43,585 nucleotides of DNA from Bdellovibrio sp. (GTDB lineage Bacteria > Bdellovibrionota > Bdellovibrionia > Bdellovibrionales > Bdellovibrionaceae), in the NCBI GenBank assembly GCA_013360185.1, contig JABWCO010000012.1:1-43585 (forward strand). Reading direction: 5' to 3'. A program made the translations under genes and the position numbers. Every line of letters begins with the position of its first letter. The first letter of the stretch is position 1. The notes under the pieces were generated by a model. That model searched no databases, was not told the DNA's origin, and was given only the letters and a program-made list of their open reading frames with translations. Below are positions 1 through 40,069 of the stretch, one piece after another.

Positions 1-1139
1 GAAAACGCCGCCACATTCGACGCTGCATCAGAGCCTGCGTTTTGAACAGCTCCTGTTATGCGAGAGTCATTCCCTGCTGCTACCGTGCCTACGCCTGTTC
101 CTACATTGAGAGAAGCGGCACCACCAAGAGCGGTCCATGCCCCATCGCCTCTTAAATAAGTCGTATTGTCCGCTGTTCCCGAGGTTGCTTTAGTAGCAAG
201 AGAACCTAAGCCACTCACGTCGGACGTCGAAAGAGTCACCGCGCCGGTGCGTCCTGCGACGCTTGTCACAGAACTACCCGCACTAACTGTCTGCCAAGTT
301 CCATCACCGCGAAGATAGGTTGTATTATCTGCTGTTCCTGTGGGACTCATTGTTGCTAAAGAACCTAAACCTAAGCTGGTTCTTGCTCCCGATGCCGTCG
401 TAGCCCCCGTACCACCATTCGCAATCGCTACAGTACCGCTAACATTTGTCGCGGTCGTTGCCGTTGAAGCATTCCCGGTGATGTTAATCCCAGCAGATGT
501 ACCACCAGCATTGAAACCATTTAAGATAGCATCAAGTTTTGTGAATCTATCAAAGATGCTTTCCAAGTTCGACTGAACCACGCCTTTTAAGTTGTTCACA
601 TTGATAAAATCTGTATCAGACTTACTGTTGAGCATCTCAGAGTTCACCGCAAAGCCCACAGAGCGCATATTAAAATCTGCAACGATGTCCTCACCTTGAA
701 CATTTAAACGAATACGCAAAACCCTGCGATCTACATTCGAGGGAATATAGCTTTGACCTGAAGAAATAATGTTATTGGCTAAATCTACGCATTTAAGATT
801 AGTGCGCGTTGTTTTATTATCAAGCACCTGACTTAAGGAAAGAACCGGAGAAGGGTTGCGAATACCTGGGGTCGCTGCCGCGCTATCTCCTAAAACTAAA
901 TTTAAATAACCGTTAGAAATATTCTTACCTGAATGTTCTTCTTCACGCAAAACACAGTGATTTTGGGGATCAAGAACTTGTGCTGTCACGCTGATACCAC
1001 TCACTGTCGGATAACTTCCGTCAGATCTTTTCAAAACGGCCTGAAAGCTAATGCCTTTATGTTGTGCATGCCCCTCTATAGAGAACCCTAAAAATAAAAT
1101 TAGTCCTATAACGGATGAACAGACGTACCGCTTATTCAT
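1..1139 (-). CDS. Secreted tail-fibre-like repeat protein (3' part cut by window edge)
   Basis: The reading frame is open from an ATG at 1139 to the window edge, so the C terminus is missing. It starts with a Sec signal peptide (MNKRYVCSSVIGLILFLGFS, then cleavage near GHA-QH). Next comes a domain of about 180 residues with a single mention of cysteine-containing strands, then low-complexity modules. The modules repeat the pattern GTADNTTYLRGDGTW with flanking LGSLAT and INITGNASTATTA segments, as in phage tail fibres and in the large surface 'anchor' proteins of Bdellovibrio. Such proteins often end in an endosialidase-type self-cleaving chaperone domain, but that part is outside the window. 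The start overlaps the stop of the upstream lipoprotein gene by 8 bases, so translation is probably coupled to it. Role in surface attachment is inference from the modules. Confidence 0.85.
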   Translation of the reverse strand, partial: MNKRYVCSSVIGLILFLGFSIEGHAQHKGISFQAVLKRSDGSYPTVSGISVTAQVLDPQNHCVLREEEHSGKNISNGYLNLVLGDSAAATPGIRNPSPVLSLSQVLDNKTTRTNLKCVDLANNIISSGQSYIPSNVDRRVLRIRLNVQGEDIVADFNMRSVGFAVNSEMLNSKSDTDFINVNNLKGVVQSNLESIFDRFTKLDAILNGFNAGGTSAGINITGNASTATTATNVSGTVAIANGGTGATTASGARTSLGLGSLATMSPTGTADNTTYLRGDGTWQTVSAGSSVTSVAGRTGAVTLSTSDVSGLGSLATKATSGTADNTTYLRGDGAWTALGGAASLNVGTGVGTVAAGNDSRITGAVQNAGSDAASNVAAF

Positions 1140-1554
1140 AGAAGACCCCTTCAATTTCCCACTGACTATTATTTACTGCTTTTGTTTTTTCTGAAATTTC
1201 ACCAAAGACCCCAGTAACTTGGTAGTGACCGGACGTTACAACTTCACCGTGGATAAAATCTGGATCTTTGCGATTGAGATGCCCTATAGAGTCGATGCTT
1301 TCAGACAACGATTGAATACTCGCATCCAAGGAGCAAGCACTTAGACTGAAGATCAGCCCACAAAAAATGAAAATTTTTTTTAGATTTATTAAGACGGATT
1401 TATTGCTGAGTTGCTGAGTTGCTGAGTTGCTGAGTTGCTGAGTTGCTGAGTTGCTGAGTTGCTGAGTTGCTGAGTTGCTGAGTATAAACGTACCAGACAG
1501 ATTTCCTCTGTCAAGCACCTCACTCTCGAATGTTAAATCATTTTGCTCACGCAT
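1132..1554 (-). CDS. Phase-variable lipoprotein (octanucleotide tract in 5' coding region)
   Basis: A 140-residue frame opens with ATG at 1554, which has a GGGAG ribosome site about 10 bases upstream. It then passes through ten copies of an 8-bp repeat, read as the octapeptide LSNSATQQ. After the repeats comes a typical lipoprotein signal, NLKKIFIFCGLIFSLSAC, with lipobox LSAC, followed by about 65 residues of unknown function. There is no ATG, GTG or TTG between the tract and the signal sequence. The only usable start is upstream of the tract, so repeat number sets the frame. Both alternative frames stop within eight codons after the tract. The 55-residue extension ahead of the signal sequence is odd; a lost start codon (ATA at the expected position) fused to the repeat-bearing leader is possible. 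The stop overlaps the next gene. Confidence 0.8.
   Translation of the reverse strand: MREQNDLTFESEVLDRGNLSGTFILSNSATQQLSNSATQQLSNSATQQLSNKSVLINLKKIFIFCGLIFSLSACSLDASIQSLSESIDSIGHLNRKDPDFIHGEVVTSGHYQVTGVFGEISEKTKAVNNSQWEIEGVFYE
1403..1482 (-). repeat. Ten perfect tandem copies of an 8-bp repeat (contingency tract)
   Basis: On the plus strand the unit is TTGCTGAG, repeated ten times without a mismatch; on the coding strand it is CTCAGCAA. Eight is not a multiple of three, so gain or loss of one unit shifts the frame of the lipoprotein gene. With ten units (or 7 or 13) the frame is open. Confidence 0.97.
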
Positions 1555-1710
1555 CTTTTTTACGCTCCCGTTACTTTATTTAGAAGCATTAAGCTTATCG
1601 GCATCCGTAAACAAAACTTTAAGAGCGTTCATATTTCCATACGAAAACGTCTCAAAGCAGGACTACCGCTCCAGACAAATGTCGCGGCCTCTTTGAACTA
1701 TAAATTTGCC

Positions 1711-1734
1711 GATTTTTTATACCGCTAAAAAATC
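1711..1734. repeat. AT-rich perfect hairpin between genes
   Basis: GATTTTTTA pairs with TAAAAAATC around a 6-base loop, between the stop of the 185-residue protein gene and the phase-variable lipoprotein. It might slow or end transcription, but the stem has almost no G-C pairs, so its function is uncertain. Confidence 0.35.
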
Positions 1735-1749
1735 AGATAGGATTACCGA

Positions 1750-2307
1750 TCACTGATTTTTAAGCATCGCAAGGAGAAGATAAATAGAAGAAAAAGCTCC
1801 CACCCATGCACCAATAACCGTTAAAAGTATCAACATGACTTTCTTAGACTTCGAGAAGTTCGTATTTTTTAGAATATGCAAGATACCAAACGAGGCTACT
1901 CCAGCAAATCCACCCGCAATTAGTCCTCCGCGTGTCGCCAGTGGGAGTGTCCAGATAAGGCCTAACGCGATATACTTTAAAGCTATCATATCTTTGCTTT
2001 GCGCCAATGAAGACTCTTGAATAGCAGGACCGATGACTTGTTCAATTCTATGCCCCCTATCGGAGACCAATGTCACCTTGGGCATCCACTTTGACCAGTC
2101 CACACCGACAGTTACTGTCACCATAGAATCATCCGACATTTTTAGTTTATACTCACGATGAAGTCGAAAACTAAAAGCGTTATTCATTATGTAACCATTT
2201 ACTTTAACTTCATCCCTACCTGAAAGACCTAAGAATAAATCGACGGAATCAACTTGTTCGTTGCCAAGATATACCTTCCATCGCCAGTCTTGATATTCTG
2301 AAAACAT
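1750..2307 (-). CDS. Membrane protein of unknown function, 185 residues
   Basis: The first 110 residues look soluble and beta-rich (WRWKVYLGNEQVDSVDLFLG and a later VTVTVGVDWSKW segment). The last 75 residues contain two to three membrane segments, including a glycine-rich stretch (GGLIAGGFAGVASFGILHIL). The ATG at 2307 has a good AGGAG site (GCAGAGGAGCCTTAT before ATG). It lies in the minus-strand run of membrane proteins behind the Rhs gene and is the last gene before the phase-variable lipoprotein. I do not recognise the family. An accessory or immunity-like role is only a guess from position. Confidence 0.7.
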   Translation of the reverse strand: MFSEYQDWRWKVYLGNEQVDSVDLFLGLSGRDEVKVNGYIMNNAFSFRLHREYKLKMSDDSMVTVTVGVDWSKWMPKVTLVSDRGHRIEQVIGPAIQESSLAQSKDMIALKYIALGLIWTLPLATRGGLIAGGFAGVASFGILHILKNTNFSKSKKVMLILLTVIGAWVGAFSSIYLLLAMLKNQ

Positions 2308-3846: not shown

Positions 3847-4596
3847 TCAATCCACATTCCATCCCATAATTTTTCTAGGCTTAGCAAACTCAACAATCGG
3901 AGCACCCTGCAATGAATTTGCGTCAATAACATTCCACTGCCGATCTATTTTCTGCCATTTTTGGTTGTAAAAATCGGCATCAGGAAAAAGTTCGTCAATT
4001 AAAGAAAACCTATCGTTCATACTTTTCCGAGTCGTCCTTATTCCAATATATTTGCCAACCCCGATAGTCTGAAAACAGACGCAGATCAAATAACCATCTT
4101 CAGTTTTGAAAGGCTCCATCTTTAAATCCGTGGACCTCCATGACCAATTATTTCTTGCAACCTCTTTATCGGTATCATAACGACCTGCTTGAGACTTTCG
4201 ATACCTTAGAATAAGTTTACGTGAAGATTTCTCTATAGTTTCCCATCTTTGAGTTTCAAGTTTTTTCATAATTTGCTCGGCGGGGAAATCCTTAACTTTT
4301 ATAAAAAAATGGTTATCTGGAGAAAAAAAATAGGGATACCACTTCATTTTCCTATACTCCAAAAAAATATTCGCACATAAAAACCCAACAATTATCGGCA
4401 TTACAACCGTCATGCCGATGATATAAGTTTCCCAATAAGAACGAAGGGGCGAAGATTCATTTCTAAGCTCAATTAAATAGGTAACATACATGATTAAAAA
4501 TGGAAATGTGACAAAACAGACTAAAAAACCAAATAAACCAACGCTGCAAATCTCCTTTAAAAATGTGCGAGGACGCTGAATCACAATCTTTATCAT
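3847..4596 (-). CDS. Membrane protein coupled to the Rhs gene; candidate immunity protein
   Basis: This 249-residue protein has two N-terminal membrane segments (about residues 16-42 and 57-76) and a soluble C-terminal domain of about 165 residues with many aromatic residues (KWYPYFFSPDNHFF, NNWSWRSTDLKMEPF). The ATG shares one base with the TAA of the giant Rhs gene (TAATG), so it is made by re-initiation after the toxin-like protein. In Rhs and other polymorphic toxin systems the gene directly behind the toxin encodes the immunity protein. Here the toxin tip is hydrophobic, and a membrane-bound immunity protein would fit a pore-forming target. I know of no family match; the immunity role is inference from position. 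Confidence 0.7.
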   Translation of the reverse strand: MIKIVIQRPRTFLKEICSVGLFGFLVCFVTFPFLIMYVTYLIELRNESSPLRSYWETYIIGMTVVMPIIVGFLCANIFLEYRKMKWYPYFFSPDNHFFIKVKDFPAEQIMKKLETQRWETIEKSSRKLILRYRKSQAGRYDTDKEVARNNWSWRSTDLKMEPFKTEDGYLICVCFQTIGVGKYIGIRTTRKSMNDRFSLIDELFPDADFYNQKWQKIDRQWNVIDANSLQGAPIVEFAKPRKIMGWNVD

Positions 4597-7500
4597 TATG
4601 GCACCTTCATCGAGTTACAGTTGAGTCCACACGCAGGACTTAAATCTCCTGTAGTTGGTAGAACACTATTCAATAGTATATTGACTCCTCTTTCCAACCA
4701 AAATGAAATCTTAGGTCCATACTCTTTCGCCCCAACAGCTATTGCGGGAGTCGCAAATCCGACTATACCTCCAGCAACAACACCTGTAAGCGCTCCAGCC
4801 CAACCACCAGTCGCTCCGCCGTGAAGTCCTAATACGGCAGCATTGCCAACTGCGAGAGCCGTTCCTAATCCAAATCTTGGTAAAGCCGCCGCAATTCCAT
4901 ACCCAAGCCCCCCACCAGCGACACTCAATAGAAACCCTTGAGTCCAATTCGTCAGAAACACGCTTCCAAAATTAGCCCAGAAATTCCCACCCATGAGAGA
5001 AGCCTGAAGAGAACTAAACAATATTGCGGGAATTAGAGAAGTAATCGCCGCCTCAAATAAAAATCCGATAATAGGAGCTAAAAAGGCAAATTTCCCGTCC
5101 GGGTCCACGTAGTTCACACCATTGTTATTTGCGTAAACGTACTTGTTGATCACACTAAGGGCACTTGAAAGTTTACCCGGATGCGGATCTTGCTGAATAA
5201 ATCTACCCGTCGCTGCATCATAGTACCGAGCCCGATAGTAATATAACCCAGATTCTTCATCAAACTCTCTGCCCGTATAAGCAAAATGCGTTCGTAGCGG
5301 CGGAGCTGAAGAAAGATCGGCGCTATTATCTGGACTTACTAATCCCAGTACCTCTCCAAATGCAGAGTAATGAATACGCTGAACAATATTCCCCGCACTA
5401 TCTGAGACTGCCTTCACTGAGCCTACATGGTCTTTGATAAATTCATAAGTTCCAGAATTCTGAGCGAGCCCAGCGGAAACTCCAGCGCTACTTATATCAA
5501 CACTCAATACATCATCTGTAGTCAGAGCAGAGTGAGTGTATCGCGCAAGTAAATTTCCAGATGCGTCTAGTTCGACAGACATCTCCTCACCATCATAACC
5601 GTAGTTACGCGTGTAATTTTTAATTATGTTACCAGGGCTATTGCTGTCATAAACCTGCTTCCGAATACGTCGGCCCGCCGGATCATAATGATAGCTCGCT
5701 CCCTTGTATGAGTTCGCAGAAAGTGCATTGGCGTAATAAGCCACGGACACAAGTTGATTTTCTGAATTGTGTTCAAACTTAACAACCTGTCCCGAGGACT
5801 TATTAACTTTTTGCATAATATTGCCAGAGTAATCATAAAAATACTGATTTCTGCCATCATCGGTTAAAAGCTGTCCCGTGGAGTCATAGACATAAGCACC
5901 CAGCAAATCAGTTATTCGATTTCCTAAGTTATCGTAAGAATAAGATTCTTGCGCAGGAAGACTTAGTGGTGTCGATCCATTGAGGGATGCAAAGGTTCGA
6001 TTTACACTCGAAACATAGCCAGCTTCATCATATCCGTAACTTTCCGTGGCAGATACCCCCTGACTTCCAGTTACAAAGCCAAGTTGATTATGGCTAAGAG
6101 TTATTGCTTCGACCGATTGGCTGTTTGATGTTTTATTATATATCAAAGATTGCAAATTTCCGGTCGCATAAGAAATCAATTTATTTATTCCCACGCCATG
6201 AACTTGCTTAAGCCTATTCACCCCATCATATCCAAAGTAAAAATTCTCACCTTTCGTATTCTGAAGTTGTCCCAATCTCATCGCTGAATCATAGCCATAT
6301 AAAACTTGACCACCCAGCGAATCTGTCATGCTCGTGCGTTGATCAAAAGAGTTATATGTGTAAGCAGTCGCATAAGAGCTAAACCCAGAGGCTCCATTGA
6401 AGGCTTGAGTCTGAAGACGAGAACCGACATCATAAGTATTTGAAATCGTACCCGTGCTGTTCGAGACTGTTGCCAAATTTCCCCTAATATCATAAGTGAA
6501 GCTATAAGTTTGCTCCGGCGTGACCTTAGAAATCATTTGGTTCAAGTCATCGTAACCAAAGGTGATCGTCTGATTTCTCTCATTAGTCTGACTGATTAAA
6601 TTTCCATTTTGGTCATAAGCCATCGTCACACTATAATTGAGCGGATTCGTTTTCGATGTCAGCCGTCCCAAAGAGTCGTAGACAAAAGACGTTACTTTCC
6701 CCTTAGGATCTGTAACCTCAGTCAATTCACCAGCAAGAGAATACGTGTAAAGAGTTTTCTCTGCTCTCGGGTTCGTTACCGATGTCAGCCTATTGAACAA
6801 GTCGTACTCGTAGGCTTCATTGACGAGCTGCGCTCCATTCACAAGAGTTTTTAAACTCATATTGCCATAGGCATCGTAAGAGAATCTTGTCTCTTTATCA
6901 TCCGTATTGACCTTAACTAAGCGACCTTTATTGTCGTAATCGCGAGTCTCAGTCGTTGAGTCACCATTGGCGCCGACTTTCTGGATCTGAATAGGTAATT
7001 CAAATCCATTGTATGCCACGGTGGTCGATGCCCCTGCGATGTCCGTCGTGCTTAGCAATAACCCCGTCGAACTCGAATAATTTCTGTGGACTGTTTTACC
7101 GTTTGTAGTTTCCGCGATCACATTCCCTAGGGTATCGTACCCCAAGATTTTCTCTTTGCCCGTTGCGGAATCATAACTCCGCACAAGATCACCCGTGCTC
7201 GAGTTATACTCAAACTCTGCATTCGAAGTATCTGGCCTAATGACGGAAACTGGTTTTCCATTTTCATTATAAGCAAACGTTGTCTTTCCACCGCTTGCAT
7301 CAGTTATCACCTGAACAAATCCGTTAAGGTCTTTGTCGATTTTGATCTCAATTCCTTTAGGGTCTATGATCCCATCATAAACTCCTCTCGTCGCTCCCAC
7401 GCGACTTTGCAATTGCCCAGGATTTTCATTAGTTCCAGATGCCAAAGATTTAGAAACTGAGTCTGCTATCTGAATTTGCGAGTTATCTGGCTTAATAACT

Positions 7501-10500
7501 TTTACCAGTCGATTGGCAACGTTATAGAAGTACTGTATCGCACCGTTCTTTTTATTGCCCTCTACCGACATGAGTCCTTTGGCATTGTACTCGTACTCTT
7601 GCCGTGAGCCATCAGGATACTCAACTTCAGAAAGCTCACCTTTCGAATTATAAGAGAATAACGTCAGTCTCCCACCGGGATCACGAATGCTGGAAAGAAG
7701 GTCGCCGGAATATTGGTATAAAACGCTATCACCATTCGGATAGGTAACTTGCGTTAAACGATTATTAGTATCGTAGCTATAATTTACAGATAGCCCAGCT
7801 AAATCAACGCTCTGAGTTTGATAGCCCTTATCATTAAAATGAACTTTAAAGCCATTTCTAAATGTTCTGACCCACGATCCATCTTCATTTTTCACAATAC
7901 TTGAAAGATCTTTATTTCCAGGAACAAATGCCAAACCATTTGCCGAATCGGCAAACGTAATTTTGCGAATCTTATTGTTTCCCGAATCTGAAACGACCAG
8001 CGCACCATCATTCGTTACAAATAATTGCGTCGGACTAAAGAGCTGAGTACTTAGAGGAGGAGTACTATCTCCATTGTCACCAGGTGCTCCAGTACCAGCC
8101 ACAACGACGGCGGCTCTATTGGCAAAGTCAATTCTTACAACTCGATGATGCCCAGTATCTGCGACGTATAAATAGCCCTTGGCATTATCTACCGCTAAAC
8201 CTGATGGCATTGAAAAGAAAGCTTTCTCCGCGGCTACAGAGTTAGCTAATACTCCCCCTTCACTTTGTGAAAGTCCGGCGAAGACAGTCATCTGTCCACT
8301 CCCATCAACTTTCATAATGTGTCCCGCCTCTGTCGCAATAAAGAGATTTCCTGCGGCATCTAATGCGACTGCACGAGGATGAAATAGACCTCCCTCAGTT
8401 GCATTGACAGTACTTCCTACTGGAATATCTGAAGTTCCACCACCACCAGCAAGAGTGCTGATGACGTTATTATCGAAGTCCACCAAACGAACTTGGTTAT
8501 TTCCCGTATCGGCAACAATAAATGTATTTGCTCGAGGACCATAGATAACAGCCGTCGGCTTATTTAATGGACTAGAGTTAACTTGCGAATAAGGGTCCCA
8601 GCCCGCAACGGGAACCACCCCAGAGCCTTGCACCAAGTTTCCACAGGAATTGTTTCCGGTATTTTCACTCGATGTACTGTCTTGAGTTCTATAGCTGCAA
8701 TTCATTCCTGTTCTGTTGTTACATTCCGTCATAACGAAATTCTGGAGATTGAAATCTGGAATCGGATTTGCCAAGTGGGATGCAACTCCCAGACCTTGAG
8801 GATTGATTGAGCCCGCAGTACCCAGCCTACCGGCAAACAACGAAGTTGTTCCGTTTGAAACTCGGATCAATGCATGACGAGTTTGATCTGAGTACACAAC
8901 ATCACCATTGGACAATGGTAAGAATGTCACGGGCTGACTGCCGTAAGTATAGTCAAATTTTTTGACCTCGCAATGAGACTTCGGAGTATATTGAATGACA
9001 GGCTCGTAGTGATCTCGAACGCAGATATTTCCGCCCGGCCACTCCCAACGTTCATCACAAACATAAATATAATCAACGATGTCAGATTGAGTCCAATTGT
9101 AGTTATAGTTACCCGCTACAATGCCTTTCATCTCAGACGCAGTTCCAAATTCTTGTGCTGAAACTGAACTTCCGCTTAAATTCGCTTGATAGAACTTCAT
9201 GCCATCAGATTTTGCGAACTGTACATTTGGATAACCGACTAAGCCGACTCCTTTTTTCAAGTCGCCGCCAAGGGTTCCGATATTGGCAATCGTTTTAATA
9301 GTATCTTTTTGGTAATAACTAGAGACATTTCCATTCGATTCTTCAATCATCAAATGATTGTCGTTTGGATTTACAATTCGCTGTACTCCCGCAATCTTCC
9401 ACCCACGACCTACGGACGATTGAACCTCATTCTGAACAAATAAAGGACCGCCCACGTCTTGATCAAAAGCGTTTTCGATAGTTCTGCGCTCATTGATATT
9501 TACCGGGTCAGCTTTAATCATAGGCTGCTCTGTTTGCGCCGAAACATTTTGATCAGCACCCAAGACACGATACTCTACGGTTCTCGTACCCGTAATCTGC
9601 TCTTTAAAACTTGCTTCGTAATGGACATTGAATGGATAAATACCTGTTGGTAAAAAGCCAGTATCATCCGTTCCTGGCTTTTTCATTTCTACTGCAAAAC
9701 TTACAACAGCCTGATTTGGAACTCCGACCATTTTAAATTTCTCAGTTTGAATATCATTTGAATGAAATTGTGCCGTTATATAATCAGGCTGGATAAGAGA
9801 GCGCACCGTAGTCACCGAAGTGAAGTCGATGGCCGTCAGTGCCTCTACATACGGCTGCTTAATAAGGTCGTTATCCGTTTGAATGGGGCTCTTATCCAAA
9901 CATGCAGGAATAATAAATATTCCCGAACAAAAACGAGTACGAATCTTATATTTTACAACATCAGTTCCCGTTTCAGTATATGTTTGCGCCTCCAGCTCTT
10001 GCAGAGGAAAGTCGAAAAGGTTTGTCACCGCCGCCGTTGGTCGCGCCCAACTAGAGTTATAAATTAAAGACGGTGTAATTGTTTTATTCAAAACTGTAAA
10101 TGATGGTGCATCTATTGATGTCTTAACGCCACCGTCAGCAATATTTGCTCCAGGTTTATCCTGATCCCCGATTTTTTTAACCACGGGAGATAATACTGTT
10201 GCGTATGCAAGAGAGAAATGGCGAATCCCTTGACCAGATTTAGTACGAACCGACTGTCCACCGTTTTCAACAGTACCAACGCCCCCGACTTCCCAGTCGC
10301 CCGTTTTCGAATTATAAAGCATAATCGCAACATCAGTCCCCTGAGGGTACTCACCTACATTCGGCATCGTAACATCTACAGGTTCAGAAAACGTAGTTCC
10401 CGAGGGTTCCAGTGCAATCACTTTCGTTGGCCGCGCAAAAGCGGGAGGCGGAATTGTTGTACGGCTCACCGGGATTTCTACAATCGAAATTTTCCCATCG

Positions 10501-13500
10501 CTACTGCCCGCTGGAAATTGCACGGACTGCGCAGGAATCTCAAGTGTAGTACCGGGTGCATGGGTATCTGTAACCGTTCCGCCTGCCTGGTAATCGACGT
10601 GACCGCCCGTATTATCAAGATACGTTGGGGCTAGATAGATCGGTCTTTGAATAATACTATCATTGCTAACACTCACTGTGACATTAACCAAAGATTGAGA
10701 GAATCTTTTGGTTGCTTCCTCACCCTCTGCCAAAGTTACCGTACTACCATCAACGACAAGGGTACGATCACCGCGAAGTGAGTTGATATTTGTTGTTGAT
10801 CTTCGGAAAACAAACACTCCTCCACTATCGGTCGTTGTCTGCACATCTGTTCCGACAATTTTTACTGTCGCATTAGCCAGCGGCTGCCCGCTTGTATCGA
10901 ATACCGAGCCCGATAAAATGATGTCACTATTGCTTCCTAAGAAAATCTCATGAATTTCAACTTTTCCAGTCAATGGATCTTGCGCTTTTAGACTCGCACT
11001 GGAAAAGGCATCCACTAAAAATTCGAAAGCTCCTTCAAAGTTGGCATTCTTAGTCTCGGAGCTAAAGAATCCCGTACTCAAAGTCACCGAGTATCCTGGT
11101 TTACTTGCTCCAGCGGCACCTTTTACTAAATACTTTGTTCCATCCTGAACCGGGACTATTGTAACCAACTCTGGATACAATGTACGAATAAGGACGCTAA
11201 AACTTACGGTGAGTGAGGTTTCATTTCCAACTTCATCTATTCCTACAACATAGAATTGCTGAAGCCCTTCGGACGCAAAAGTATATGGCATATTGAATGA
11301 TTTTCGATCTGCCGAGAAGTTTGGCACCGATTCACCATTGATAAATACTTCGCTTAGGCGCTTGTCTGATGTTCCTGATATAACTTGATAAGCCGCATCC
11401 AACTGCTGACCTTCCAAGGGATTCGTCATAGTCAAGACTGGTGGCTGCGTATCCATACGGATTGGTCCCGTTTGATAACTAGATTCATTGCCCCAGTCAT
11501 CCACAGCAATAATTTTAATATAATTATCAATTTCAGGATCAAGTGGAACATCCCATGAAATGAAACGCTCAAATGTAGTAAAGACCAAGTTGTCGTTTAC
11601 ATAAACTGATACCGTCGGCAAATGAATATCTTGCGCAGAAATATCAAGACGTATTGAGGGAGTATTCACGTAAGGTTTATAACCCGTCACTGTCAAAACA
11701 GGTGCTTGGAAGTCTGTTTCGATCACGATGTTATTTTCTAGCGTTGATTTATTACCCGCTAAATCAGTAGCAACAAGTTTAATTGTCTTTGTCCCATCGG
11801 TAAGAAACAACAACTGCCCCGCAAAGCTTGTACCCCCTTCATCCAAAGGAAGAGATAAACCATTTGCTGAAATATCCGACAGGGGCTCATCAGAAAATCC
11901 TGAAATCATCACCAACCGCTGATTACTTCTGATTGTTTCGTCAGATGCGGGTAATACGCTATTAAGAACTGGAGGAGTAACATCTACCGTAATTGTATCT
12001 GTAACAATCGAAGAAGAGTTTCCAGAAGCATCTACAGAACTAACAAATACGGTATTTGTCCCTTCAGGCAGGTGAAGGTCTTGAATAATTTTTTTACTCT
12101 TAGACTCAACAGCTGTCATTCCATTTACCTGAACGGTCGTCGTGGTGCTTGCAATATCACGAATATCCAACGACAGGTGGAAATTAGGGTTATTCGTTAA
12201 AGTCGGCTGAGTCGGAAAACCCGTTGCTAAAATTTGTGGCGGCTCTGTATCTGCTACAGGCGCAACTCGATCAACAATAACTTGTAAGTAGGTTGCAGAA
12301 CCGCCCCAAATTTGAACGGAAAGCTTATTTATTTCTTTTAGCTTTACAACACCCTCAAATAAATACTGAAACTTACTTACGTCACCGCTTGCAGTAACCC
12401 TTAGGTCATTCACATAAACGTAAGCATTATTGACTCTATATTGATTCACATACTGTGAGTTCATCCAATTGTTGAACTGGCAAAGTAGATCAAAAATTGA
12501 ATTACAAGGATCATTCGTGGGACGAGGCTCTCCATCTGCATTGAGGATGCGAATTCTATATAATTCATCAAGCTTATCGCTTGGAGCATTAAAGTTCACG
12601 GTATGCATGACCGGGCTCTGAGTATCGGAGCCGTTAAAAGATGTCGGGCCGTAAATCGTCTCTTGTGAATCGAAATAAGGACTTGGACTGACTACAATGG
12701 ATCTTTCAACTTCAGACTTTCCACCACGGTCATCGGTAGCCTTCACCGTCACGATATATGTTCCGGGGGCTGAGTAAACATGATCCGCCGTCCAGGCGCT
12801 CGTCGTTTTTGTTCCATCACCCCAGATAAATTCAAAGCTCGATATGACACCATCTGGATCATATGAACCACTGGTATCTACATAAATATATTCTGGAGTC
12901 CCTCGTATAATATTTGTTTTAATGACCGGAGTTTGATTGGTAGGAAGATTTTGTGCAGGCGGCAAAACTTCAACCGGGATAGATATTTGATCCTCCTGTC
13001 CGGCTGAGTTTTTTACCTTCAGTGTAATTTGATATGTACCCGGACTATTGTAGGTATAGTTAGCACTCAATCCTGAGGCAGTTCCGGTTCCATCTCCAAA
13101 ATCCCAAGTATATGTTAAGGAACGTCCTAAGGGATCAAAGGAATAGCCCGCCTTGACTTGTTGTTGCATCGGAGCTGAACCAACAAGTTTTTTGACTGAA
13201 AAGAAGGCCTTAGGCTTCAAATTAGCAACCACAGTAGACTCAAGAGAGTAGCGCAATTGACTTGTGGGAAATCCTAACTTCGTAAATTCGAAGGTATTGA
13301 TGTCTCTATTGAAATTCAAAGCCACTTCTTTATAAGAACGCAAGTGACCAATCGTTGCACTGGCAATGACAGCCCCATTCAATTTAAAACTATAGTTTTC
13401 AAACTGGGTATAATCTGTCTGAAGTTTCTCAACGGCATTATTTGAAAGGCATTGTCGAACAAGTCCAGCAGGAGTTAACCCCAAACAACTTGGCGCGAGG

Positions 13501-13697
13501 TAAGGCCCCGTAGTTCCATTGTAGACCTTGTAAAGATAATAGCCTTGAGGCATTCCCGTTATATCGACATTTCTGGTAAAAGTATAACTTGCTGTATCTG
13601 GCGTTGTCACAAGCTCCGGCCCGTAGATAACATCAGCGCGAGACGCCACCGAACATAAAGATAATATCAACGTGAAAATAAAATTTGTTCGCAACAT
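4596..13697 (-). CDS. Giant secreted PKD/NHL/Rhs (YD-repeat) protein, candidate toxin carrier
   Basis: The protein has 3033 residues and starts with a Sec signal peptide (MLRTNFIFTLILSLCSVASRA). In order it shows two PKD domains (about 160-340, with WDFGDG and IWGDG), an unassigned part, then about four Ig-like repeats each opening near DxxPPxL (480-850). Next are a carboxypeptidase-regulatory-like fold (about 930-990), a ZU5-like region (1040-1165) and NHL repeats (about 1690-1905, with VADTGNNQVR and VADTGHHRVV). A long YD-repeat shell follows (about 1950-2780), then the Rhs core signature GLYYYRARYYDAATGRFIQQ and VDPDG at about 2866. The last about 165 residues are hydrophobic and glycine-rich, unlike nuclease tips. 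Known Rhs/TcC shells enclose and cleave off such variable tips. There is no PAAR domain, so export is through Sec, not obviously type VI. AAGGA precedes the ATG. The next gene overlaps the stop. Confidence 0.93.
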   Translation of the reverse strand: MLRTNFIFTLILSLCSVASRADVIYGPELVTTPDTASYTFTRNVDITGMPQGYYLYKVYNGTTGPYLAPSCLGLTPAGLVRQCLSNNAVEKLQTDYTQFENYSFKLNGAVIASATIGHLRSYKEVALNFNRDINTFEFTKLGFPTSQLRYSLESTVVANLKPKAFFSVKKLVGSAPMQQQVKAGYSFDPLGRSLTYTWDFGDGTGTASGLSANYTYNSPGTYQITLKVKNSAGQEDQISIPVEVLPPAQNLPTNQTPVIKTNIIRGTPEYIYVDTSGSYDPDGVISSFEFIWGDGTKTTSAWTADHVYSAPGTYIVTVKATDDRGGKSEVERSIVVSPSPYFDSQETIYGPTSFNGSDTQSPVMHTVNFNAPSDKLDELYRIRILNADGEPRPTNDPCNSIFDLLCQFNNWMNSQYVNQYRVNNAYVYVNDLRVTASGDVSKFQYLFEGVVKLKEINKLSVQIWGGSATYLQVIVDRVAPVADTEPPQILATGFPTQPTLTNNPNFHLSLDIRDIASTTTTVQVNGMTAVESKSKKIIQDLHLPEGTNTVFVSSVDASGNSSSIVTDTITVDVTPPVLNSVLPASDETIRSNQRLVMISGFSDEPLSDISANGLSLPLDEGGTSFAGQLLFLTDGTKTIKLVATDLAGNKSTLENNIVIETDFQAPVLTVTGYKPYVNTPSIRLDISAQDIHLPTVSVYVNDNLVFTTFERFISWDVPLDPEIDNYIKIIAVDDWGNESSYQTGPIRMDTQPPVLTMTNPLEGQQLDAAYQVISGTSDKRLSEVFINGESVPNFSADRKSFNMPYTFASEGLQQFYVVGIDEVGNETSLTVSFSVLIRTLYPELVTIVPVQDGTKYLVKGAAGASKPGYSVTLSTGFFSSETKNANFEGAFEFLVDAFSSASLKAQDPLTGKVEIHEIFLGSNSDIILSGSVFDTSGQPLANATVKIVGTDVQTTTDSGGVFVFRRSTTNINSLRGDRTLVVDGSTVTLAEGEEATKRFSQSLVNVTVSVSNDSIIQRPIYLAPTYLDNTGGHVDYQAGGTVTDTHAPGTTLEIPAQSVQFPAGSSDGKISIVEIPVSRTTIPPPAFARPTKVIALEPSGTTFSEPVDVTMPNVGEYPQGTDVAIMLYNSKTGDWEVGGVGTVENGGQSVRTKSGQGIRHFSLAYATVLSPVVKKIGDQDKPGANIADGGVKTSIDAPSFTVLNKTITPSLIYNSSWARPTAAVTNLFDFPLQELEAQTYTETGTDVVKYKIRTRFCSGIFIIPACLDKSPIQTDNDLIKQPYVEALTAIDFTSVTTVRSLIQPDYITAQFHSNDIQTEKFKMVGVPNQAVVSFAVEMKKPGTDDTGFLPTGIYPFNVHYEASFKEQITGTRTVEYRVLGADQNVSAQTEQPMIKADPVNINERRTIENAFDQDVGGPLFVQNEVQSSVGRGWKIAGVQRIVNPNDNHLMIEESNGNVSSYYQKDTIKTIANIGTLGGDLKKGVGLVGYPNVQFAKSDGMKFYQANLSGSSVSAQEFGTASEMKGIVAGNYNYNWTQSDIVDYIYVCDERWEWPGGNICVRDHYEPVIQYTPKSHCEVKKFDYTYGSQPVTFLPLSNGDVVYSDQTRHALIRVSNGTTSLFAGRLGTAGSINPQGLGVASHLANPIPDFNLQNFVMTECNNRTGMNCSYRTQDSTSSENTGNNSCGNLVQGSGVVPVAGWDPYSQVNSSPLNKPTAVIYGPRANTFIVADTGNNQVRLVDFDNNVISTLAGGGGTSDIPVGSTVNATEGGLFHPRAVALDAAGNLFIATEAGHIMKVDGSGQMTVFAGLSQSEGGVLANSVAAEKAFFSMPSGLAVDNAKGYLYVADTGHHRVVRIDFANRAAVVVAGTGAPGDNGDSTPPLSTQLFSPTQLFVTNDGALVVSDSGNNKIRKITFADSANGLAFVPGNKDLSSIVKNEDGSWVRTFRNGFKVHFNDKGYQTQSVDLAGLSVNYSYDTNNRLTQVTYPNGDSVLYQYSGDLLSSIRDPGGRLTLFSYNSKGELSEVEYPDGSRQEYEYNAKGLMSVEGNKKNGAIQYFYNVANRLVKVIKPDNSQIQIADSVSKSLASGTNENPGQLQSRVGATRGVYDGIIDPKGIEIKIDKDLNGFVQVITDASGGKTTFAYNENGKPVSVIRPDTSNAEFEYNSSTGDLVRSYDSATGKEKILGYDTLGNVIAETTNGKTVHRNYSSSTGLLLSTTDIAGASTTVAYNGFELPIQIQKVGANGDSTTETRDYDNKGRLVKVNTDDKETRFSYDAYGNMSLKTLVNGAQLVNEAYEYDLFNRLTSVTNPRAEKTLYTYSLAGELTEVTDPKGKVTSFVYDSLGRLTSKTNPLNYSVTMAYDQNGNLISQTNERNQTITFGYDDLNQMISKVTPEQTYSFTYDIRGNLATVSNSTGTISNTYDVGSRLQTQAFNGASGFSSYATAYTYNSFDQRTSMTDSLGGQVLYGYDSAMRLGQLQNTKGENFYFGYDGVNRLKQVHGVGINKLISYATGNLQSLIYNKTSNSQSVEAITLSHNQLGFVTGSQGVSATESYGYDEAGYVSSVNRTFASLNGSTPLSLPAQESYSYDNLGNRITDLLGAYVYDSTGQLLTDDGRNQYFYDYSGNIMQKVNKSSGQVVKFEHNSENQLVSVAYYANALSANSYKGASYHYDPAGRRIRKQVYDSNSPGNIIKNYTRNYGYDGEEMSVELDASGNLLARYTHSALTTDDVLSVDISSAGVSAGLAQNSGTYEFIKDHVGSVKAVSDSAGNIVQRIHYSAFGEVLGLVSPDNSADLSSAPPLRTHFAYTGREFDEESGLYYYRARYYDAATGRFIQQDPHPGKLSSALSVINKYVYANNNGVNYVDPDGKFAFLAPIIGFLFEAAITSLIPAILFSSLQASLMGGNFWANFGSVFLTNWTQGFLLSVAGGGLGYGIAAALPRFGLGTALAVGNAAVLGLHGGATGGWAGALTGVVAGGIVGFATPAIAVGAKEYGPKISFWLERGVNILLNSVLPTTGDLSPACGLNCNSMKVP

Positions 13698-27804: not shown

Positions 27805-28206
27805 CTATTTCAAGTGCTTAGAAACAAGTTTAGTCATGTCGAACATAGAAACTGTAGTTTTGCCGCCGAAAACTTCTTTAAGTTTTGCGTCTGCATTGAT
27901 GTTTCTTCTGTTTTTAGAATCTTGAAGATTGTTCTTCTTGATGTAAGCCCAAAGTTTTTTAACAACTTCAGTGCGTGGAAGTGGAGAAGCACCAACAACT
28001 GCTGCCAAAGCTGCAGATGGAGTCAACGCTTTCATGAATGCTGCGTTTGGTTTACGAGCAGTTTTTGCTTTTGGAGCAGCTTTTTTTGCAGCGGCTTTTT
28101 TAGGAGCAGCTTTCTTAGTTGTAGCTGCTTTTTTAGGAGCCGCTTTTTTTGTAGTAGCTTTTTTAGGAGCTGCTTTCTTTGTAGTAGCTTTTTTCGCTTT
28201 TGCCAT
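27805..28206 (-). CDS. Histone-H1-like SWIB domain protein
   Basis: The 133-residue product joins a lysine/alanine/proline-rich tail (residues 1-52, repeats of TKKAAPKKA, like histone H1 and AlgP-type proteins) to a SWIB/MDM2-type domain (about 53-133). Seen are NAAFMKALTPSAALAAVVGA, LPRTEVVKKLWAYIKKNNLQ, and KLKEVFGGKTTVSMFDMTKL. SWIB domains come from eukaryotic chromatin remodelling factors and are found in Chlamydiae and Bdellovibrionota. A role as nucleoid-binding protein that compacts DNA is likely but inferred. It has its own strong terminator, and its divergent 5' region contains two perfect hairpins. Confidence 0.93.
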   Translation of the reverse strand: MAKAKKATTKKAAPKKATTKKAAPKKAATTKKAAPKKAAAKKAAPKAKTARKPNAAFMKALTPSAALAAVVGASPLPRTEVVKKLWAYIKKNNLQDSKNRRNINADAKLKEVFGGKTTVSMFDMTKLVSKHLK

Positions 28207-39975: not shown

Positions 39976-40069
39976 GCTTCAGCTTCGCTCTGCGCCTGCG
40001 GGCCTTCAGCTGCGCTCTGTGCCTGCCGGCCTTCAGCTGCGCTCTGTGCCTGCCGGCCTTCAGCTCCGG
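39976..40069. repeat. Three tandem 27-bp copies plus a partial fourth
   Basis: The unit CCTTCAGCTGCGCTCTGTGC plus CTGCCGG occurs twice exactly (40003-40029 and 40030-40056). One diverged copy precedes it (39976-40002) and a 13-base partial follows, merging into copy B of the hairpin element. It is not a CRISPR: the repeats are directly tandem, with no spacers. Confidence 0.85.

Follow-up and report, generated by a model that had tools for sequence, protein, structure and literature searches.

A putative phase-variable lipoprotein and mosaic adhesive trimer operon in a Bdellovibrio contig

The window analysed here is a stretch of 43,585 nucleotides from a Bdellovibrio sp. assembly and is an entire contig (C197), so that a gene for a fibre-like protein at its beginning is cut at the contig end. 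Read along the minus strand, the operon containing this gene runs from a terminator-like hairpin through a sigma28 promoter, a Shine-Dalgarno sequence, the start codon ATG1554, a second hairpin, a tandem repeat array, a lipobox and a start/stop overlap to the fibre gene. Its features are:

1727..1760, minus strand: putative terminator-like inverted repeat (AAAATCAG...CTGATTTT, then a T run) at the end of the preceding gene, as read from the sequence
1595..1621, minus strand: sigma28 (FliA) promoter, TAAAGTTT-N11-GCCGATAA, with 16/16 consensus positions; the sole exact match in the window
1565..1569, minus strand: lipoprotein Shine-Dalgarno sequence, GGGAG, 10 nt 5' of ATG1554
1132..1554, minus strand: lipoprotein open reading frame of 140 amino acids, from ATG1554 to TAA at 1134-1132
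1480..1527, minus strand: RNA hairpin directly 5' of the array, holding the alternative starts GTG1523, GTG1518 and TTG1514; from folding against shuffles
1403..1483, minus strand: perfect 8-bp array, (CTCAGCAA)x10.1, inside the lipoprotein frame; from repeat search, proposed slippage switch
1333..1395, minus strand: region coding for the signal peptide and lipobox (LSAC), in which no ATG, GTG or TTG occurs
1146..1152, minus strand: fibre Shine-Dalgarno sequence, GAAGGGG, within the lipoprotein gene and 6 nt 5' of the fibre ATG
1132..1139, minus strand: start/stop overlap of 8 nt, ATGAATAA
1115..1139, minus strand: predicted 7-bp RNA hairpin that pairs the fibre AUG and contains the lipoprotein stop
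3..1139, minus strand: fibre gene encoding a signal peptide, a mosaic adhesive trimer N-terminal domain (NF053851) and the start of a stalk

The stem of the terminator-like repeat is A+T-rich, and the repeat is absent from the list given by a scan of the sequence. Upstream of the operon, on the same strand (4596-13697, minus), lies a gene whose 3033-residue product has PKD-like and RHS/YD-like repeats.

The fibre gene begins with the ATG at 1139-1137, and its frame stays open to the contig end (379 codons, truncated). Residues 15-182 of the product match the NCBIfam profile NF053851, the Bdellovibrio mosaic adhesive trimer N-terminal domain, at 112.4 bits (cut-off 60 bits), and on this match we place the truncated fibre in the mosaic adhesive trimer (MAT) family, with the same N-terminal domain family as the MAT fibres of strain HD100 (PMC10769870). 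MAT fibres have a long, trimeric, beta-rich stalk and a diversified adhesive tip; here the start of the stalk alone is present, resembling phage tail fibres, and the tip lies off the contig. NF053851 has matches in 62 of 66 family genomes and in none of 14 control genomes; genome G006 (3,782,950 bp) has 21, equal to the count given for HD100 in the MAT study (PMC10769870).

The lipobox cysteine of the upstream protein (FCGLIFSLSAC, codon at 1335-1333) is invariant in an alignment of 20 sequences. The 73 residues ahead of it form an unusually long stretch, the longest array-free relatives being three with 41-48, and this weighs against the reading that we prefer below. Lipoprotein processing removes whatever precedes the lipobox cysteine, and the repeat-encoded peptide, which is N-terminal to this residue, would be removed at maturation. 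Relatives of the mature part were found in 18 of 99 genomes, and profile matches, of which the weaker are doubtful, in 43 of 66 family genomes. No match to the lipoprotein was found in Pfam, PHROGs or NCBIfam, no convincing homologue in phages and no DNA match in plasmids; for a profile scan of named genomes none of its sequence proved sufficiently conserved, and the MAT N-terminal domain was scanned for in its place. An AlphaFold2 model built from 20 homologues (pLDDT 62, pTM 0.26) was too poor to be used for a fold search.

The array lies between ATG1554, the only well-placed start, and the signal peptide. It can also be written (TTGCTGAG)x10.1, with 100% match, and its 81 nt are far beyond chance, since period-7/8 runs reach at most 17 nt when the window is shuffled 20 times; an exact tandem of two units occurs nowhere else in the genome. 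The array is known from one assembly and one copy number, and the 10 units assembled are in frame. By computation, the frame from ATG1554 is ON at 7, 10 and 13 units and OFF at 8, 9, 11 and 12, when ribosomes would terminate at 1400 or 1389, some 250 nt before they reach the fibre start; this bears out the proposal of an earlier note on this DNA that a shift of the lipoprotein frame would halt ribosomes far upstream. At 8 or 11 units every start codon from the promoter to the array is out of frame, and at 9 and 12 units the frame is open only from GTG1523 and TTG1514, both inside the hairpin and without a well-placed Shine-Dalgarno sequence, which at 9 units could give leaky expression. The stretch from array to lipobox contains no ATG, GTG or TTG, either in the window or in a second array-bearing locus in G037 (the BroJett040 assembly, of another genus), so expression of the lipoprotein must cross the array. 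We thus find a perfect tandem array with a unit that is not a multiple of 3, inside the reading frame of a surface protein, where a change in unit number closes the frame; the operon is, in our judgement, probably phase-variable. Two further tandem repeats in the window, at 28069-28194 and 39977-40065, have units of 15/30/63 bp and 27 bp, all divisible by 3 and therefore frame-neutral.

The promoter was scored against the E. coli FliA consensus, and it also reads TTAAA-N16-CCGATA from 1622. In HD100, TTAAG-N16-CCGATA was mapped in 66% of attack-phase promoters and ascribed to FliA (PMC3627812); the window promoter agrees with this mapped consensus of the B. bacteriovorus attack-phase regulon in both sequence and spacing, and expression of the operon in attack phase is likely on this likeness. 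FliA-like sites of varying strength lie upstream of several, not all, other family members.

It is conceivable that the array is a regulatory element of the 5′ leader, binding a protein or RNA or setting promoter spacing, and does not switch a frame at all. A report on marine Beggiatoaceae (PMC4679880) provides a precedent, in that post-transcriptional roles are proposed there for heptamer arrays near genes. A TTGACA-N22-TATACT sequence also adjoins the array, and the hairpin ahead of it is stable (-20.4 kcal/mol, z -3.9, 0/200 shuffles), a comparable hairpin preceding the G037 array (5' of 247281 in G037:C3). Indeed TTGACA and a stable hairpin stand directly 5' of both arrays, and 11 of 12 array-free relatives have no such hairpin. 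However, a gap of 22 between TTGACA and TATACT departs widely from 17, the array has no usable lipoprotein start on its downstream side, and a far better FliA promoter, with a Shine-Dalgarno sequence and an ATG, lies upstream of it; we regard a leader element of this kind as improbable, and prefer a frame switch. The hairpin before the arrays may promote slippage, may conceal the alternative starts or may be left over from the origin of the arrays.

Most close relatives of the window fibre come after a lipoprotein of this kind, in comparison with none of 19 sampled main-clade MAT genes. An overlap of 8 nt, ATGARTA(A/G), is found in 20 of the 26 lipoproteins with an adjacent MAT gene (a count that includes near-identical orthologues), and a Shine-Dalgarno sequence of the type GAAGG(A/G)G is kept in most pairs. 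The overlapping stop and start are thus kept in relatives, and across diverged paralogues. Pairwise identities of lipoprotein and MAT protein are correlated over 23 pairs (r 0.87; 0/2000 permutations), in part because neighbours are simply inherited together, and the two genes form a co-inherited module.

In one G006 pair, which shows the overlap, the fibre tip matches PDB 8ol4 over 271 residues (E 1e-178). The Bd2439 construct (residues 837-1107; PMC10769870) is equally long, and so we take the G006 fibre gene as HD100 Bd2439; it likewise stands behind an overlapping lipoprotein of the same family as that of the window. Bd2439 is a MAT that binds a Proteus glycan, and the only one with a known glycan target (PMC10769870). 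The MAT study makes no mention of a lipoprotein, an operon or phase variation, and it leaves the surface partner of the N-terminal domain unidentified (PMC10769870); the lipoprotein is a candidate for this partner.

Two MAT-like genes (L058 in G035 and L067 in G013) overlap larger lipoproteins with mature parts of 167-192 residues, unlike that of the window, and the overlap may therefore be wider than the window's family. Other MAT genes have no adjoining lipoprotein: at L158 (G000:C216) another large open reading frame ends just upstream, and at L064 (G016:C3) the gene is preceded, on the same strand, by a second MAT gene, a layout that suggests tandem MAT arrays.

The earlier note, whose span of 1-1139 misses the array (1403-1483) and the promoter (1595-1621), had placed the fibre start 8 bases before the lipoprotein stop, and the two genes do overlap by 8 nt, from ATG1139 to the TAA at 1134-1132. 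Its further suggestion, that translation of the fibre is coupled to that of the lipoprotein, is supported in part: the layout that coupled phase variation requires exists and is kept within the gene family, and another genus has an array at the corresponding place, but the fibre has a strong Shine-Dalgarno sequence of its own and its start is only moderately structured. An independent promoter and ribosome site for the fibre had been named as evidence that would count against coupling; the ribosome site, GAAGGGG, is there, whereas no convincing promoter was found (one 9/12 sigma70-like site at 1195-1168, with sites no more numerous than in shuffles). The fibre start region is no more stably folded than its shuffled versions (z +0.8), and the computed cost of opening the start, about 7 kcal/mol, falls within the values for seven other window genes (1.6-8.5) and for the family (4.4-13.8). 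With a strong Shine-Dalgarno sequence and an ordinary start structure, coupling may be partial.

These same properties, the ideal 6-nt spacing of GAAGGGG and the moderate opening cost, would suit a locus in which the lipoprotein alone varies, the fibre is made steadily from its own Shine-Dalgarno sequence and the overlap is a matter of operon compaction, short overlaps being common in bacterial operons. We think this unlikely, as the exact overlap is retained across diverged paralogues, the OFF state leaves about 250 untranslated nt ahead of the fibre, and the joint inheritance of the pair points to a fibre that depends on its lipoprotein in any case. The overlap and this untranslated stretch favour a fibre that follows the lipoprotein. 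Moreover, loss of the lipoprotein partner alone could silence display even where the fibre is made, a route absent from the earlier note.

We therefore lean towards a slipped-strand phase-variable prey-adhesin operon, the fibre included, as a rather likely account of the locus. Sigma28 (FliA), whose promoter is seen and whose use we infer, would make one attack-phase mRNA for lipoprotein and MAT fibre; ribosomes would begin at ATG1554, there being no other well-placed start, and cross the array to the signal peptide. Loss or gain of one unit would put them out of frame, to stop at the computed positions, while signal peptidase II would cut off the repeat peptide, giving the same mature lipoprotein at 7, 10 and 13 units. 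In the ON state, ribosomes finishing at the lipoprotein stop would pass to the fibre ATG within those 8 nt; when the frame is OFF, this hand-over and the lipoprotein would both be lost, and the fibre would fall through lost coupling and mRNA polarity, and/or because its base would be left without the co-inherited lipoprotein partner. One clone would then consist of cells with and cells without the adhesin, and surface adhesins are the usual targets of repeat switches. That the fibre drops clearly in OFF cells is a point on which we incline, if only narrowly, to the affirmative. More tentatively, and with real doubt, we suggest that predatory bacteria diversify their prey-recognition fibres within a clone by repeat slippage, the switch being placed in a dedicated lipoprotein that would anchor a MAT subclass at the surface; as the switch sits in a part lost at maturation, expression would vary and the mature protein would not.

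The lipoprotein and MAT loci that we retrieved were searched for perfect arrays (4-12 bp); apart from an unrelated one (L131), those of the window and of G037 were the only ones present. The G037 array, (CTCAGCA)x11.9 with a 7-bp unit, occupies the same place in a MAT operon: it lies downstream of a Shine-Dalgarno-supported start (GTG, with GGAG), is in frame as assembled, and is followed by ATGAATAA and a MAT gene of 978 codons, with the caveats that its start is a GTG and its FliA-like site weak. CTCAGCA-type arrays occur in three places in 140 genomes of the order, two of them being those of the window and G037; the third (G090, L131) was rejected as a further switch, as it sits in the tail of an unrelated open reading frame. 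In the MAT tree the nearest relatives of the two array carriers differ and are array-free, so that the trees disfavour common descent of the arrays; the possibility that they were gained by transfer of a repeat cassette must be kept in view. The two arrays are apparently separate gains at the same functional position, and are the best evidence that the array is retained as a switch. The other sampled pairs, those of HD100 included, differ from the window in having no array, and switching is therefore not a general feature of the module.

The second locus bears also on the idea that repeat expansion displaced the native start and left the lipoprotein gene as a decaying relic. Most family members start near the signal peptide, where the window gene has no start, as this idea would predict; yet promoter, ribosome site, lipobox, mature region, overlap and fibre frame are all intact, the assembled copy is in frame, and the same layout, again in frame, is found in the second genus. 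We give a relic very little credence, and retain the switch as our reading.

Phase variation by repeat slippage is already known, and the locus shares with the surface-gene switches of Haemophilus, Neisseria, Moraxella and Campylobacter a perfect short tandem array, of a unit that is not a multiple of 3, placed between the start codon and the gene body. It differs from switches of the Haemophilus/Neisseria type in its 8-bp unit, in an array that lies within a part removed with the lipoprotein signal peptide, and in a proposed output that adds a second gene through the start/stop overlap; with its array set in the removable extension encoded by an overlapping partner gene, the putative switch would be a distinct variant. 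In Bdellovibrio, the 42-bp deletion in bd0108 at the hit locus (PMC3818213) is akin to our proposal as a recurrent repeat-mediated change that affects surface appendages, but it is an in-frame deletion between two 10-bp direct repeats, whereas the window has a multi-copy slippage array. In the open-licence full texts searched we came across neither a case of slippage phase variation in Bdellovibrio nor an account of the lipoprotein-MAT module.

Deletions of single MAT genes delay predation only slightly (PMC11003981). If single fibres are switched at random, a predator clone would spread its bets over prey surfaces, and the conserved lipoprotein provides a definite candidate for the surface element missing from the account given in the MAT study. 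As a kindred pair encodes the gene taken as Bd2439, the idea is testable in the standard laboratory strain HD100.

Two resemblances to viral sequences were set aside. An octamer array in an IMG/VR phage contig was rejected as a relative, since it is unrelated and lies in a non-coding stretch: this phage-like contig (L001), in which a terminase-like gene is present, has a degenerate array built of the window's octamer (CAGCAACT) at about 6224-6318, and no link to MAT genes was seen on it. A match to the array flank in viral contigs was put down to chance. The end domain of the MAT fibre behind the G037 array (L161; G037:C3, gene from 246950, minus strand) resembles a formylglycine-generating-enzyme or C-type-lectin fold (GNLWEWTS...GFRCARPR), the kind of fold found in targets of diversity-generating retroelements.
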